42,020 bases of DNA from an uncultured Methanobrevibacter sp. GTDB taxonomy: Archaea; Methanobacteriota; Methanobacteria; Methanobacteriales; Methanobacteriaceae. The notes under the pieces are model-generated. The model was given only the letters and a program-made list of their open reading frames with translations. It was not told the origin of the DNA and searched no databases. A program made the position numbers and the translations under genes. The stretch is from assembly GCF_902788255.1 (NCBI RefSeq), contig NZ_CADAJR010000022.1, positions 1-42,020 of the forward strand, given 5' to 3'. Positions within the stretch are counted from its first letter, which is position 1; each line of letters begins with the position of its first letter. This document shows, one piece after another, positions 33,092 to 41,825 of this stretch.

Positions 33092-33380
33092 ATAGGGTTT
33101 GAAAGAATATAAATCTTTGTGTATTTGTGCTTCTATGCATTTTCATTTTTGTGTATTTTTTCAAAAAATACAAAAACTTTATATATATCCTAATTATAAT
33201 ACTATATTGCAGTCCAAAAAACTGTAATTTTCAAAAAAATATACATTAAACAGTTAAGTTTATATACTATGAAAATTAATGTTATATTACAAAGTGCATA
33301 ACTTTTCATAAAATGCATCAATCAAATCCACACCATTGTATTTTAAGGTGATATATAAAAAAAGTAAAAGAGGTAATGAT
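33092..33380. other. AT-rich region with several possible promoters
   Basis: No gene is seen. Plus-strand TATA candidates are TTTATATATAT (33179-33188), TTTATATAC (33259-33267) and GATATATAA (33352-33359). The first two would give long leaders for the gene at 33381 and the last a nearly leaderless mRNA. Confidence 0.3.
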
Positions 33381-33804: not shown

Positions 33805-34374
33805 ATGCAAAAAGTGATGTTAGAAGAAATAGCGGAAATCATATCAGGCTTGTCCTATAGGAGATACCTGAATGATGACGGGGATAAATTCAAAATCATA
33901 GTTCAAAGATCCTTTAGTGGAGATGGAAAACTATCTGATTTTGAAGAAATCTCTCTTAAACACGATATTAAGGAAAGATATTTTACACAGGAAAATGACA
34001 TACTGATGAAGATGACCCATCCCTATGAGGTGGTCTGTGTAAAGGATAAGGATCTCCTGATAAGTGACAGAATCGCAATAATCAGGCTTAAAAATGGATA
34101 CGATCCGGAATTTATCACTCATTTACTTGCAAATGCTCATATTCAAAAACAACTCCATATAATGGGAGGTAGCGGTAAGATGCCGCACACTTCCCTTAAA
34201 GAAATAAAACAGCTCATGCTTACTGTTCCTGATTTTAAAACACAAGTCAAATACGGGGAACTTTTAAACACCATTGATGAAAAGATAATGGAAGATTTGC
34301 GCCAGGTTGATTATGACAGGCATCTTAAGGAAGCAATCTTAAATGATTTATGGGGTGAAGACGATGATTGCTAA
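33805..34374 (+). CDS. HsdS-like half specificity subunit (single target-recognition domain)
   Basis: A 189-residue protein matching one half of a type I restriction-modification S subunit: LEEIAEIISGLSYRR opening, NDILMKMTHPYEVV and IIRLKNGYDPEFITHLL of the recognition domain, then MGGSGKMPHTSLKEIKQLMLTVPD and a helical conserved region KYGELLNTIDEKIMED for pairing. Full S subunits have two such halves; a half would need to dimerise or act alone. The ATG at 33805 follows GAAAGGG; a TTG at 33790 is less likely. It overlaps the HsdM-like gene by 11 bases, with S before M, the reverse of the common order. No hsdR is in the window. Confidence 0.8.
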   Translation: MQKVMLEEIAEIISGLSYRRYLNDDGDKFKIIVQRSFSGDGKLSDFEEISLKHDIKERYFTQENDILMKMTHPYEVVCVKDKDLLISDRIAIIRLKNGYDPEFITHLLANAHIQKQLHIMGGSGKMPHTSLKEIKQLMLTVPDFKTQVKYGELLNTIDEKIMEDLRQVDYDRHLKEAILNDLWGEDDDC

Positions 34375-36040
34375 AAAACCTGTAAATTATAAGATTTTAA
34401 AACGCATCATGTCCAAATTAAGAATGGCAGAATCCCATTTTAACACCAATTATGCCGTTCTTTATGCATTCTTTTACAAATACTGCTCAGATTCTATAAA
34501 AGATTTTTTAATGGATGAACTAAAGGACAAGGAACTGACCATTGATGAGGCTTACAGGAATAAAATCTCTTACGAACAGCTGCTGTTTGATTCACTGCAC
34601 ATGAATGGTTTTTTTATAAAAAAATCTGATGCTTTCATTGATGAATTAGTTAACAGCAAAACCTCAAAGCGCAGATTTTTAGAAGAATTTTTAGGAGTTT
34701 TTCCAAGAAATATCATATTCAACTCAGAATATCATAATCTAAAATATTTCAAGGATTTTTTCAATATCATTCGTGAGGGCATTGATATATCTCAATTAAA
34801 CGATTCACAGGTTAATGATTTGTGTGAAATAATCGTGCTGATTTCAAGACTGGAGGTCACTGGAGATGAGTTTCCATTTGAAGACGTGTTCGATATAGTT
34901 TCAGCTTCACGATTTGTCCATGTCAATTCAAATCCCGAATTGATTACGCAAATTTTGTCCAAACTGGTGGTTTGTGAGAAAAAGTCCATTGATTCAGCTT
35001 ATGATCCATTTATTAAAAATGGAGACACTCTAATGAAGTTACGTGAGGAAATTGGATATGAATTGAGATACTGCTACGGTAAGGACTCTCACAATATAAA
35101 TTATGTTTACAATGTTGTAAAATTCTTTATCAGCAATTTTTCTCTAAACAATGTCTTTTTAAAAAGGGAAGATGCATTTGATTCAATCGATTTCAATGGA
35201 AGATCTTTTGATGCGATATTGTCCAGAATTCCAATTTCAATAAAAAACTATCACACTTCCAATTTCAATCAAAGTATGGAAATTGCAAAAAGAAACAAGC
35301 GCAGTGAAGTGGAAAATCTATTGCTTGAAAAATTGGATATAACTGAGGACTCTTTCAAACAGAATCTCAAATTGAATCAGGCATTGGAAAATCTTGTTGA
35401 AGAAATAGGCTTTGAAGATGATTCCAATTCCAATTTCAAAGGCCAATATGAATCACTTCAGGACAGTGAGTTTCTATTCCTGATTAATCTGATTGAAGCA
35501 CTTAAAAACGATGGAATCATGACTATCTGCATTTCAGAAAATTTCCTGTTTAAACCATCACTTGAAATATTGAGGAAATATCTTACATTAGAGAAGAATT
35601 ATATCGATACAGTTATCCGTGTTCCAAATGAGTTTTCACGCTCACGACCTGAAGTAGTCATGGTATTTAAGAAAAACAGGCAAAATAGTGATGTTCTGTT
35701 CATAGACATGTCATCAGACTATGAAACACAGCGCAGCAGACTGACCTATCCTGGTTTATTTAGAAAAAATCTGGTTCTGGATGATGAAACTCTTTCCAAA
35801 ATGGAAAATGTATTTTTAAACAAGTTAAGCATTGATAAATATTCCAATCTGATTTCCATTGATGAAATAGAAAACAATCAGTTCAATCTGTCAGTTTCAC
35901 GTTATGTGGATACATTTGACGGTGAGTTCATATCTCTTGATGATTTGGTGGCTGAAAAGCAGGAAATTGACTCAAACATCAATGAACTGGATATAAAAAT
36001 TGAAAAAATGATGGATGAATTAGGTATCAGATTCAAGTGA
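34364..36040 (+). CDS. HsdM-like N6-adenine methylase homologue with lost catalytic motifs
   Basis: A 558-residue HsdM-like fold. Helical N-domain, then the methylase core and the characteristic C-half EFLFLINLIEALKNDGIMTICISENFLF, DTVIRVPNEF and VVMVFKKNRQNSDVLFIDMS, as in type I M subunits. The SAM and target motifs are ruined: the usual DP-x-C/A-G-x-G-G segment reads AYDPFIKNGDTL (about residue 212), the GQE-type segment reads YGKDSHNINY, and NPPF/Y reads SRIPIS (about 285-290). Methylation is not expected. GGGGTGA before the ATG at 34364 and an 11-base overlap couple it to the HsdS-like gene. A coiled tail (DSNINELDIKIEKMMDELG) ends the protein. Confidence 0.8.
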   Translation: MIAKKPVNYKILKRIMSKLRMAESHFNTNYAVLYAFFYKYCSDSIKDFLMDELKDKELTIDEAYRNKISYEQLLFDSLHMNGFFIKKSDAFIDELVNSKTSKRRFLEEFLGVFPRNIIFNSEYHNLKYFKDFFNIIREGIDISQLNDSQVNDLCEIIVLISRLEVTGDEFPFEDVFDIVSASRFVHVNSNPELITQILSKLVVCEKKSIDSAYDPFIKNGDTLMKLREEIGYELRYCYGKDSHNINYVYNVVKFFISNFSLNNVFLKREDAFDSIDFNGRSFDAILSRIPISIKNYHTSNFNQSMEIAKRNKRSEVENLLLEKLDITEDSFKQNLKLNQALENLVEEIGFEDDSNSNFKGQYESLQDSEFLFLINLIEALKNDGIMTICISENFLFKPSLEILRKYLTLEKNYIDTVIRVPNEFSRSRPEVVMVFKKNRQNSDVLFIDMSSDYETQRSRLTYPGLFRKNLVLDDETLSKMENVFLNKLSIDKYSNLISIDEIENNQFNLSVSRYVDTFDGEFISLDDLVAEKQEIDSNINELDIKIEKMMDELGIRFK

Positions 36041-36958
36041 GATGCCTTCGTCGATTTCATCCTCAATCTCTTTTTTTAGTTTTTGAAAATAGGACATGTG
36101 TATGATCTTATTTTGATATGCATATACTGTGCCGATGCCGTCATCATTTTCAAATTCAAAGATCTCCTCAAGACCAAGGTTTTCCCTTTTTTCATATGAT
36201 GAGGTGAATGTTTTTGAAATTATGTCTTTTGCTTCATCAACATTTACCGCAAATGTGTTGTTTTCAATTTTTGAATCTATAATGTAGCTTTTTAGGATTT
36301 TCTTGTGAAATTCCCTATAGATTTCAGGATTTAGAAATATTTCAAAACCTTGAATTTCCCCATTTAATATAATTAAAACACCGTTCTGTTCACTTTCAAC
36401 TTCAAATTCATGGATTATTGATTCATGGGTGCTTTTTAAGTTCTCGTAACTCTCTTCCATTGCACTTGTAGGTGATGCGAAGCTGTTTTCAACTTCAAGC
36501 TGGTTGATTGATGACCAGATTACGTCCTGTGTATGTTGACTGGTTTTTTCAGCATACCTTTTTGCTTTTCTGGTATTGTAGTTTGCCATATATTCTGATT
36601 GCTTGAACTCGCTTTTGTAGGCCCATCTTCCCTTTTCTGTGCAGCTTACAGGGACTGCCATTTCACTGTTTGCCTCGAGTAGAATGGTTGAATTGATGAT
36701 ACGATTCTGGTCACCACCGATTATCTCTTCACCGTCAATCAGAATCAGTGGTGCAACTGCATTGTTTTTAACGATTACTGTGTTTACCTGGGATGTTTCA
36801 CATTCCTTGACTTCAACCAATCCCAGTTCCATGCCCTTTTTAAGGGTCAGCATATCAATGTATGACCTTTGTGTTTTTAAAGGAATAACTGCTAAGTTTT
36901 CATGCACCTGCGGTGCTAAAAGCTCAATGTCATTATCAAGACTCATCATTTTCATCAT
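36020..36958 (-). CDS. ARPP-1 domain protein
   Basis: A 312-residue protein (fewer if a later ATG at 36946 is used). Sequence from about residue 20 to 235 fits the ARPP-1 domain (ARG and rhodanese-phosphatase-superfamily-associated protein domain; DUF6569-like): VIPLKTQRSYIDMLTL, GLVEVKECETSQVNTVIVKN, LILIDGEEIIGGDQNRIIN, EMAVPVSCTEKGRWAY, FASPTSAMEESYENLKSTHE and GEIQGFEIFLNP. The domain is linked to ADP-ribosyl-glycohydrolase and phosphatase proteins in computational studies and has no proven activity that I know of. The start overlaps the HIRAN gene by about 23 bases, and the 3' end overlaps the convergent HsdM-like gene by 21. Confidence 0.75.
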   Translation of the reverse strand: MMKMMSLDNDIELLAPQVHENLAVIPLKTQRSYIDMLTLKKGMELGLVEVKECETSQVNTVIVKNNAVAPLILIDGEEIIGGDQNRIINSTILLEANSEMAVPVSCTEKGRWAYKSEFKQSEYMANYNTRKAKRYAEKTSQHTQDVIWSSINQLEVENSFASPTSAMEESYENLKSTHESIIHEFEVESEQNGVLIILNGEIQGFEIFLNPEIYREFHKKILKSYIIDSKIENNTFAVNVDEAKDIISKTFTSSYEKRENLGLEEIFEFENDDGIGTVYAYQNKIIHMSYFQKLKKEIEDEIDEGISLESDT

Positions 36959-37352
36959 CTGGTATGTAATGATTTTTAATGTATTCGATATCTATTTTTG
37001 AAGGATTTTCACTTAGGTAGTGAACATCACTTTCAGGATTTTCAATTTCCTTTATAAATTCATCTGCTGATAATATTTTGGCAATTACTGTACTGCCTGT
37101 GATGAATTTAATTTTGGCATAATATTCATCTGTGATTTTGTCAAAAACTCTTCCGGAACTCATGCATCCTTTAATGACAGTATTGGTACTGTTTGCAACG
37201 TAGCCTATTTTTCCAAAATATCTCATTTCACAGGCTATCGCTTCTGTATCATGCTTGTTGTCTGGTTCCTTTACTAATTTTATGATTCCGCCCAGTTTAA
37301 GCGGTTTGTCTCCATGAAAATTGTTAAATGCCATCACTGTAATAAACATCAT
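36936..37352 (-). CDS. HIRAN-domain protein
   Basis: A 138-residue protein whose first 105 residues form a HIRAN domain: MFITVMAFNNFHGDKPLKLG, then IIKLVKEPDNKHDTEAIACE, GKIGYVANSTNTVIKGCMSSGR and YAKIKFITGSTVIAKIL. HIRAN domains of HLTF/Rad5 bind 3' DNA ends; stand-alone microbial forms are often seen with DNA-repair or mobile-element genes. The acidic C-terminus (YIPDDENDES) may be unstructured. AGGTGAT lies just before ATG ATG, so 37349 is also possible. The gene lies 11 bases after the KefB-like gene and overlaps the ARPP-1 gene, so the three may share an mRNA. Confidence 0.8.
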   Translation of the reverse strand: MMFITVMAFNNFHGDKPLKLGGIIKLVKEPDNKHDTEAIACEMRYFGKIGYVANSTNTVIKGCMSSGRVFDKITDEYYAKIKFITGSTVIAKILSADEFIKEIENPESDVHYLSENPSKIDIEYIKNHYIPDDENDES

Positions 37353-39363: not shown

Positions 39364-39975
39364 TTATAATCTACTTACTTTAATTAAAGATTCAACAGGT
39401 ATGCCTTCAATTTCTGAAAGTCCTGCCTTATCAATCAATACTGTAACGCAGGTAGGTTCTCCACCTAAGTCTTTTACAGTATGAATAACTTCTTTTGCGG
39501 TTTTTCCACTGGTAATTACGTCATCAACGATTACCACTTTTTTGCCTTCAACACTGCCGAAGTTGGTACTGATTGTACCTTCGTCATCACTTTCATCGGC
39601 ATCTTTTCTGTGTTTGTGAGGGTGGAATATTGCCAGTGAGGTATCTAAACCGCTCATGTCTTCAATCAGATCAGACATTACGGTTGCAAATGGAATTCCA
39701 CTTACTGCAACACCTACAACTGTGTCGACATCTCCATGTGATAATGCCATGTCACTTAAAGCACCGGAAACATAATTCAAACGGGTTGAGTTTCCTCCAA
39801 TACTTTTCCAATTAATAGCAAAATCCACTGGTGCTTCAGCTTTCACTTCAGCTGCTTTTTGAAGGGTTAACCATCTTGCGGTGTCCATACTTACATTGAG
39901 TTCATCAGCTATTTCACCGGTAGTAAAACCGTGTTGTCTGAGTTCTTGAGCTTTTTCTATTAATTTTTGTTTCAC
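39364..39975 (-). CDS. gfcR: GfcR-like transcription regulator (PRTase domain with HTH)
   Basis: A 203-residue protein with an N-terminal helix-turn-helix ([20 protein letters not shown]) and a phosphoribosyltransferase domain with the PRPP loop [16 protein letters not shown] (about residues 145-160). Such archaeal orotate PRTase-like proteins are regulators rather than PyrE; GfcR of haloarchaea controls sugar catabolism genes. The start is GTG 39975 with GGTGAT upstream. It lies 9 bases after a Gfo/Idh oxidoreductase and is probably in the hemC operon. The target in this methanogen is unknown; PRPP or a sugar intermediate is a likely signal. Confidence 0.85.
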
Positions 39976-39984
39976 ATTATCACC

Positions 39985-40941
39985 TTATTCGAGTTCTTCA
40001 AATCTGATTGGCTTATGTTCTTTGGAGGATCGATTTGCAGCAATAACCATTTTAAGAGCTTTAAGTCCGTCTTCACCAGTTATTTCTGGCTCTTCATTAT
40101 TCATTACTGCATTTAAGAAGGAGTTTAACTCACTTTTAAGTGGTTCTTCATGTTTAATTTGAATATCTTGGGCAAACTTACCGTACACTTCGATACTCTG
40201 TTTGATGTAATCGACTGATATGATTCCTGCAGTACCAGTAAGTTCCAGTTCTCTACGTTTGTATGGTGTTAACCAGTTTACTTCAATGATACCTGTTGAC
40301 TCATTGTCAAAGTTGACCATAATCTCTGCATGGTCTTCAAATTCACTGTCGTCAAAACTGCAGTTCATGGTACCGTAAACCTGGGTTACTTCCTCTTCAA
40401 ACAAATAGTTCATAATGTCTAAATCGTGAATAGCTAAATCTATTGAAACACCAACGTCCTTTATTCTTGGTGGGAGTGGACCGACCCTTTTTGCAAAAGC
40501 GGATACTACGTCTCCAATAACTCCGTCATCAATAAGTTCTTTAGCTTTTTGAACAGCAGGATTAAATCTCTCAACATGTCCTGTTGCAAGCAGAACTCCT
40601 GCCTCTTTAGCGGCAGCAATCATTTCTTCAGCCTCTTCCACGGTAAAAGCTATTGGCTTTTCAACCAGGACATGTTTTCCATTTTTAATGGCTTCCATAA
40701 CCACGTCATGGTGGAATGTGGTTGGTACACATACGCTGACCGCTTCTATTTCAGGGTTTTCAAGTAATTCACTGTAATCTGTAAATCCTTTTGCACCATA
40801 TTTCTTTTCAATTTTCTTAAGGGCTCTTTCACTTACGTCACTTACAGCGACTAAATTAGCTTCTTCCATTTTGTGGTAGACACGAACGTGGTTTTCACCC
40901 ATCGCACCTACTCCTACAACTCCTACGTTAATAGTTTTCAA
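39985..40941 (-). CDS. Gfo/Idh/MocA-family oxidoreductase
   Basis: NAD(P)-dependent sugar oxidoreductase of 318 residues. N-terminal Rossmann motif GVVGVGAMGENHVRVY, then VCVPTTFHHDVVMEAI, GKHVLVEKPIAFT (the EKP motif) and, in the C-domain, SIDLAIHDLDIMNYLF with a conserved His. Archaeal homologues have been called UDP-GlcNAc 3-dehydrogenase, which is one possible role, but this cannot be told from sequence alone. The start is TTG 40941, set by GGAGGAAT just upstream. It lies 14 bases after hemC. Confidence 0.87.
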   Translation of the reverse strand: MKTINVGVVGVGAMGENHVRVYHKMEEANLVAVSDVSERALKKIEKKYGAKGFTDYSELLENPEIEAVSVCVPTTFHHDVVMEAIKNGKHVLVEKPIAFTVEEAEEMIAAAKEAGVLLATGHVERFNPAVQKAKELIDDGVIGDVVSAFAKRVGPLPPRIKDVGVSIDLAIHDLDIMNYLFEEEVTQVYGTMNCSFDDSEFEDHAEIMVNFDNESTGIIEVNWLTPYKRRELELTGTAGIISVDYIKQSIEVYGKFAQDIQIKHEEPLKSELNSFLNAVMNNEEPEITGEDGLKALKMVIAANRSSKEHKPIRFEELE

Positions 40942-40955
40942 TTTAATTCCTCCGT

Positions 40956-41825
40956 CTAAACGTAATCTGTGAAAATTTTTCCGATGCGTCTGCCAAGTTC
41001 AACTGCATCTTTAACGGATCCATTTTCAGTTTGCTCTTTAAGGATTTCTCCTTCTTTGGTTAATAAGATTGAATAAATATTAAACTTATTGTCATTCATT
41101 TGTGCAATTGCACCTATTGGCCATTGACAGCCAACGCCAAGTTCTTCAAGAACTTTCTTTTCTGCCAGTACTTCCTGCATTGAAATGTAATCATTTAGTT
41201 TAGAAATTACTTCTTTTTTATCGCTATCCTTACGTGTGATGATTGCCAATGCTCCCTGGCCTGCTGGTGGAGTGATGTAATCTAGCGGAAATACATTTTT
41301 GATATATTTTGTCAGATTTAATCTCTTCAATCCTGCCTGTGCCATTATGGTTGCATCCAAATCACTTTCAAGGGCCTTTTGAATTCTGGTTTCAATGTTG
41401 CCTCTGATAGGTTTAAGTTCAAATTCCTTATTGTAATGATTACAGAATGCTTCTCTTCTAAGGCTGCTGGTTCCAAGCTTTGAACCTGGACCTAATTCAT
41501 TCCAGTCTTTTTTAGAAATAAGTACTTCATTAGGAGTTTCACGTTTAGGAACTGCAACGATTTCCAAATCTTCATCTAATTCTGTCGGCAAATCTTTAAA
41601 ACTATGGACGGTAAAATCAACCTCCTCTTCTAGAAGGGCAATATCCAATTCCTTTGTAAAAAGGCCTTTTGAATCCATGTTGTATAATTGGGATGTAGTA
41701 ATTTTATCTCCTTTGGTCTTGATAATTTCTACATCTATTGATTCTCCGGTTATTTTAGATAAATCAGCACATACTTGGTTTGTTTGTGCCAATGCTAATT
41801 GACTACCGCGTGTTCCTACAATCAT
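40956..41825 (-). CDS. hemC: Hydroxymethylbilane synthase (porphobilinogen deaminase)
   Basis: Joins four porphobilinogens to hydroxymethylbilane in tetrapyrrole synthesis, feeding cobalamin, F430 and siroheme. The 289 residues show MIVGTRGSQLALAQTNQV, IKTKGDKI, FTVHSFKDLPTE, KLGTSSLRR, ETRIQKAL, YITPPAGQGALAI and the cofactor Cys in LGVGCQWPIGA (about residue 233). AGGAGAT precedes the ATG. It begins a minus-strand group hemC, Gfo/Idh, gfcR. Its tie to cbiJ at the other end of the window is functional (both serve corrinoids) but they are not in one operon. Confidence 0.95.
   Translation of the reverse strand: MIVGTRGSQLALAQTNQVCADLSKITGESIDVEIIKTKGDKITTSQLYNMDSKGLFTKELDIALLEEEVDFTVHSFKDLPTELDEDLEIVAVPKRETPNEVLISKKDWNELGPGSKLGTSSLRREAFCNHYNKEFELKPIRGNIETRIQKALESDLDATIMAQAGLKRLNLTKYIKNVFPLDYITPPAGQGALAIITRKDSDKKEVISKLNDYISMQEVLAEKKVLEELGVGCQWPIGAIAQMNDNKFNIYSILLTKEGEILKEQTENGSVKDAVELGRRIGKIFTDYV

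Follow-up and report, generated by a model that had tools for sequence, protein, structure and literature searches.

Locus organization

Three genes lie in series on the forward strand of a 42,020-nucleotide stretch of DNA (the window; NCBI RefSeq assembly GCF_902788255.1, contig NZ_CADAJR010000022.1, positions 1 to 42,020) from an uncultured Methanobrevibacter sp.: c0, a half-size HsdS gene (half-HsdS) and the gene of an HsdM-fold pseudo-methylase (pseudo-HsdM) (Table 1). The source genome, 2.2 Mb in size, has two canonical HsdM genes at other places, and these adjoin HsdR. An earlier sequence-only reading of the window had described the pseudo-HsdM gene as an uninterrupted frame of 558 codons, and both its coordinates and its frame are right; it had made no mention of the half-HsdS gene, which is complete and is overlapped by the start of the pseudo-HsdM gene. 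The S and M genes overlap or abut in 39 of 39 relatives, within start-codon uncertainty, which suggests coupled translation. The order c0, half-HsdS, pseudo-HsdM is kept in all 19 loci compared, c0 being adjacent to the pair in each, and the housekeeping-type genes downstream (39364-41825 in the window) are shared, with the next conserved gene kept in 18 of the 19. Only the more divergent carriers (L022-L052, e.g. L046:5418-5813) encode an additional conserved basic protein of approximately 130 aa between c0 and half-HsdS (c12, no Pfam family); in others, a short stretch of c12, ATGCTYATTTCARCCA, remains as conserved non-coding sequence.

Table 1. Features of the c0, half-HsdS and pseudo-HsdM locus (window coordinates)
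Feature	Coordinates	Strand	Remarks
c0, 114 aa	33381..33725	+	No Pfam family; first gene of locus; possible partner; in 40/40 carriers
Inverted repeat TTAGTTTTGG-N7-CCAAAACTAA	33727..33753	+	Intergenic between c0 and half-HsdS; candidate terminator, RNA hairpin or operator
Half-size HsdS, 189 aa	33805..34374	+	One target-recognition domain and one long C-terminal helix
HsdM-fold pseudo-methylase, 558 aa	34364..36040	+	558 codons and stop; fold predicted
Arg20	34421..34423	+	Aligned to PacII M2 Arg29 (helix 1, DNA-side contact); Arg 38/40, Lys 2/40
Former motif I (SAM loop), YDPFIKNGDT	35000..35029	+	Canonical YDP(T/A)CGSGS
Former GQE segment, now GKD	35078..35086	+	GKDS in window; Lys240 in 40/40; canonical copies Gln
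Former motif IV, DAILSRIPI	35210..35236	+	Canonical DA(I/V)VANPPF; catalytic Asn replaced by Arg/Lys288
Clade-specific insertion of ~46 aa after motif IV	35243..35437	+	Predicted mostly helical (296-324, 335-348)
Lys397	35552..35554	+	Aligned to PacII M1 Arg336; Lys 39/40, Arg 1/40; canonical copies Arg
10-aa insertion, ~residues 461-470	35744..35773	+	Consensus PGLF[RK][RK]NL
C-terminal NLSxSRYVDTF motif and long helix (525-553)	35849..36037	+	

The intergenic inverted repeat has perfect 10-bp arms and a 7-nt loop, CTCACCA. The nearest relatives share it, each arm being longer by one matching base in L016-L021, and in L026 and L029 the same loop is carried on another stem (GGGAAG/CTTCCC). Rfam returned a sub-threshold match only (E 0.27), and a role as a repeated recognition site was rejected, since allowing up to 2 mismatches gave no second copy in the genome. 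Upstream of c0 (approximately 33250-33380), a CACC-N12-GGTG element that possibly represents a 5'UTR hairpin or an operator follows a TATA-like box. It is present in 13 of 40 carriers, replaced by CCAC..GTGG in other subclades and more widely spaced in the most divergent loci, and as an operator it is for these reasons taken as a lead only.

Sequence and predicted structure of the pair

Pseudo-HsdM passes the Pfam N6_Mtase profile (3.5e-25, 89.4 bits vs a cut-off of 20.4), the best-scoring stretch being its C-terminal half (residues 357-518), and scores below the cut-off of the NCBIfam equivalog hsdM (TIGR00497, 61.1 bits vs 242.75). The half-HsdS passes the Pfam profile Methylase_S (2.3e-9, 38.1 bits vs a cut-off of 22). 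AlphaFold2 models, with each chain predicted singly, have a pLDDT of 86.9 and a pTM of 0.83 for pseudo-HsdM, and a pLDDT of 89.9 and a pTM of 0.82 for half-HsdS, in which a helix spans residues 144-183. In Foldseek searches the pseudo-HsdM model was closest to HsdM 3lkd (TM 0.64/0.76) and also matched PacII and EcoR124I, and the half-HsdS model was closest to Esub1 (TM 0.72/0.74) and also matched HsdS 1yf2, 3okg, 5ybb and 7vru_C.

The loss of motif I, the GQE segment and motif IV (YDPFIKNGD, GKDS and DAILSRIPI in their places), recognized in the sequence-only reading, is confirmed and is wider than had been claimed: in an alignment with canonical HsdM of the same and neighbouring species, motif X reads VHVNSNP vs the canonical GEFYTP and is lost in 40 of 40 orthologues. 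The SAM-loop pattern D-P-x-x-G-x-G is absent, and the first glycine of motif I (Gly218) occurs in only two of the 40; one of these, L047, comes close to the canonical sequence (DPFMGDG), though at motif I only. The clade consensus at this place is Y[DN]PF[LMI][KNR][DN][GA], with Pro215 in 40/40 and Phe216 in 39/40, and the former GQE segment is worded GK[DE]. Motif IV does not match N-P-P-aromatic, the Asn and the aromatic residue (position 291) being found in 0/40; NPPF is replaced by [KR][IVLF]P, with Asp283 in 40/40 and Pro290 conserved, and position 288 is Lys in 19, Arg in 18, Glu in 2 and His in 1 (Lys/Arg in 37/40). These replacement residues are conserved in their own right, which is not what drift would be expected to give. 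The retained fold, conserved Pro290 and Asp283 and the motif I of L047 are what a still-active methyltransferase with unusual motifs would have in its favor, but such an enzyme is very improbable given a motif IV without its Asn and aromatic residue in every orthologue and the disappearance of motif X and Gln240 from all of them.

The claim that the rest of HsdM was kept holds only in part: the protein is ~26% identical to the two canonical HsdMs of the same genome and contains two clade-specific insertions. The segment after motif IV is 60-66 aa long in 40/40 orthologues vs 19 aa in canonical HsdM, and the 10-aa insertion, which has the same length in 39/40 and is missing in canonical HsdM, adjoins the position aligned with PacII M1 Arg401. 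The C-terminal tail of type I HsdM is HsdS-binding. In pseudo-HsdM, RYVDT is invariant (40/40), NLSxSRYVDT, which lies ahead of the HsdS-binding helix, is nearly so, and the C-terminal region has an identity of 0.60 vs 0.39-0.42 for the N-terminal half.

Distribution, inheritance and selection

Full-length orthologues of both S and M are carried by 40 Methanobrevibacter species genomes, the window included and many of them metagenome-assembled, and the named relatives from the protein search are all Methanobrevibacter (M. thaueri among them). No orthologue was found outside the genus at E<=1e-40 among 152 genomes of the class. The 39 relatives of pseudo-HsdM are 37-65% identical to the window copy and none of the 40 orthologues has a stop codon; with one and the same motif state in 40 species genomes that are independent of each other, neither chance nor assembly error can account for it. 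A viral origin was also considered and rejected: 51 viral contigs matched, but their best segments reach 20-43% identity, a level that any HsdM would give.

In close pairs, dN/dS (Nei-Gojobori) is 0.04-0.12 for M, 0.02-0.16 within its former catalytic core and 0.03-0.11 for half-HsdS; dS is saturated in several pairs, so that we rely on the three least diverged (M: 0.065, 0.119 and 0.105). Recent decay, with the pair a remnant on its way out, would agree with the three or more losses that the clade has seen (see below), but it is hardly credible and already strongly contradicted by 40 stop-free orthologues, by these ratios and by the conserved new motifs, and the earlier judgment that this is no decaying pseudogene holds. 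Homologues with intact motifs in the same clade, which the sequence-only reading had named as contrary evidence, were sought among the 40 orthologues and none was found. Together with purifying selection and the conserved replacement residues, this supports its proposal of a selected non-methylating role. Judged from sequence, M is a pseudoenzyme, its catalytic residues having been lost clade-wide under purifying selection.

Of the type I subunits, HsdS is generally the one that varies most (PMC10609329). Across the 40 genomes, half-HsdS is 54-77% identical to the window copy vs 37-65% for M, and conservation in its recognition domain equals that of the remaining protein (0.68); by these identities S is more conserved than M, opposite to what is seen in normal type I systems. 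A tree built from two flanking genes unites the carriers in a single supported clade (100/98), within which at least three losses took place, and at the empty sites in G036, G041 and G074 c0 adjoins the downstream gene directly. The pair is thus old, vertically inherited at one chromosomal site and, since it was lost at least three times within its own clade, non-essential.

HsdR is absent from the locus in 19/19 loci, so that the pair is not part of a complete type I restriction-modification system there, and PF04313 (the HsdR family) has no match anywhere in 16 of the 40 carrier genomes, several of which are >90% complete. The pair does not require HsdR. Pseudo-HsdM or half-HsdS might instead modulate the cell's own type I systems by joining an active HsdR, HsdM or HsdS as a dominant-negative or alternative-specificity subunit, a reading to which the two canonical HsdM genes with HsdR in the window genome and the half-HsdS proteins of active cassettes lend some support. 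We regard it as quite unlikely in view of the HsdR-free carriers, the low identity to canonical HsdM and the constant inheritance of S and M as a pair.

The gene c0 is present in all 40 genomes with the pair vs only 4 of 27 congeners without it. Genes for an ARPP-1 protein and a HIRAN-domain protein (36020-37352 in the window) are convergent with the pair and are its neighbours in 14 of 19 loci. The tracking of the pair by c0, the adjoining ARPP-1 and HIRAN genes and a scattered loss resembling that of defence genes would all suit a defence component, in which the dead methylase complex would detect a fixed sequence, or that sequence in its unmodified form, on invading DNA and pass a signal to a partner such as c0, ARPP-1 or the HIRAN-domain protein. 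This reading is rather improbable: the pair is inherited vertically at one housekeeping site and its recognition domain is conserved, which does not resemble fast-changing defence loci. The ARPP-1 and HIRAN genes run convergently to the pair and are missing from 5/19 loci, and PADLOC reports generic type I subunits only.

Other half-HsdS/HsdM cassettes of the family

Other cassettes of the same archaeal family (those of genera g9 and g12, and L058) resemble the window pair in S-M order, in HsdR not being adjacent and in loss of the motif IV Asn, and differ from it in their motif IV replacements (QIPF, VPF/Y, HPPF and VPPF). The g9 pair (L060-L069, L080-L085) is syntenic beside a DHH/DHHA2 gene. 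In nearly all of its sequences that were read, NPPF has become QIPF or EIPF, and GSGS has become GSAS or GSSS. The pair retains GQE and most of motif X, so that SAM binding may survive, and is probably, from its motifs, a second, independent dead methylase. Two forms occur in g12, a short one with VPF/VPY-like motifs and no GxG and another with HPPF. L058, with VPPF, DPFLGTG and a half-HsdS 45% identical to that of the window, may represent an intermediate. Most copies that have NPPF/Y and GSGS lie beside HsdR, and half-HsdS proteins are present in active cassettes too. In a tree the window clade forms one group (100) and g9 lies nearer the canonical group, hence the motif losses are not all one event; the joining of g12 to the window clade reflects long branches and is not relied on.

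Genes of approximately 90-115 aa, mostly in tandem pairs and STIV B116-like, lie beside the half-HsdS/HsdM cassettes of g12 (L053, L065, L070, L072, L074, L088, L089, L095); the resemblance was checked on L053 alone (E 4e-5, just under the Pfam cut-off). The canonical type I loci L054, L056 and L057 contain multiple hsdS copies, part of them in opposite orientation, and share a gene of ~331 aa (a possible recombinase), an arrangement that looks like phase-variable specificity switching.

Interpretation

Catalytic sites are lost in 40/40 while selection preserves both proteins, and the pair is therefore probably a DNA-binding complex with a new job. In our preferred reading, with a probability of roughly 0.6, it descends from a type I modification enzyme whose methylating activity disappeared in the clade ancestor, and it has been kept as a non-modifying, sequence-specific DNA-binding complex. 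In its favor are the motif loss with new conserved residues, low dN/dS, S/M coupling, kept DNA-contact positions and HsdS-binding tail, confident folds, HsdR-free carriers and the precedent of engineered half-HsdS. Against it are the losses within the clade, the finding of no recognition site or regulon of the pair, and a fold that could serve protein-protein rather than DNA contacts. DNA binding had also been suggested in the sequence-only reading, and the co-conserved recognition domain of half-HsdS and the kept DNA-contact Arg/Lys support that role; binding itself we infer.

Two half-HsdS subunits would pair through their C-terminal helices, each binding one pseudo-HsdM via the C-terminal tail of the latter, and the resulting M2S2 clamp would close on a palindromic split site, identical in all carriers. 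By analogy with engineered enzymes, half-HsdS is expected to dimerise and to bind a split palindrome with HsdM (PMC6158711). Lys/Arg288, Lys240 and the PGLF[RK][RK]N insertion might supply extra DNA contacts in place of catalysis. Bound without methylating, the complex could act as a stable roadblock, an operator-bound regulator, or a sensor of sequence or modification state; its use as a regulator, which we favor, or as a sensor is speculative.

A broader claim is held more tentatively, at somewhat less than even odds: on several independent occasions, in three or more lineages of a single methanogen family, half-HsdS/HsdM modules may have become complexes that bind DNA without methylating it. 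At least two of these would occupy fixed, syntenic chromosomal sites, and together they would make up a novel class of regulators or sensors that bind archaeal DNA and stem from type I restriction enzymes. If the DNA-binding reading is true, restriction enzymes would be a recurrent source of chromosomal DNA-binding complexes in animal-gut methanogens, and the recurrent, differently worded loss of catalytic motifs would offer a natural comparison series from enzyme to binder. Automatic annotation will call the pair an N-6 DNA methylase and a specificity subunit, and surveys of archaeal epigenetics would include it among modification systems.

Comparison with known systems

For class Methanobacteria overall, an archaeal survey reported no RM system as persistent and named only a GATC methylase in Methanobacterium (PMC10609329), and nothing matching a dead HsdM or a domesticated half-HsdS in methanogens was found in the open-access literature. 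Pseudo-HsdM shares its predicted whole-chain fold with the HsdM of EcoR124I and of Streptococcus thermophilus (3LKD) (profile E 9e-73 and 2.7e-85; Foldseek TM 0.62-0.65 by query) and has a C-terminal tail of the same kind; it differs from both in its destroyed motifs X, I and IV, its two clade-specific insertions and a locus without HsdR. The HsdM and HsdS folds are likewise shared with PacII M1M2S, a non-canonical type I methyltransferase (7VRU, PMC9613975) in which M2 Arg29 (helix 1) and M1 Arg336 (DNA backbone) touch DNA and M1 Arg401 is a minor-groove residue. Arg20 and Lys397 align with the first two of these (Table 1). PacII has intact NPPF/NPPY and binds SAH (PMC9613975), whereas pseudo-HsdM has lost those motifs.

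The best Foldseek match of the half-HsdS model, Esub1 (PDB 8VSQ/8VSR), is a stand-alone half-HsdS-like protein; it differs in having been solved bound to the protein Prx, under a record title that names no HsdM-like partner, and no paper on these structures was found in the open-access literature. In classical type I enzymes neither S nor M alone binds DNA, but the complex does (PMC3874165), and an engineered half-HsdS of type I origin forms dimers and is functional together with HsdM (PMC6158711). Type I enzymes with a half-HsdS (EcoR124I-NT and engineered M-half-S; PMC3320862, PMC6158711) share with the window pair one recognition domain and a dimerisation helix, for which a palindromic split site is the expected target, but they methylate, whereas the window pair is without the catalytic residues.
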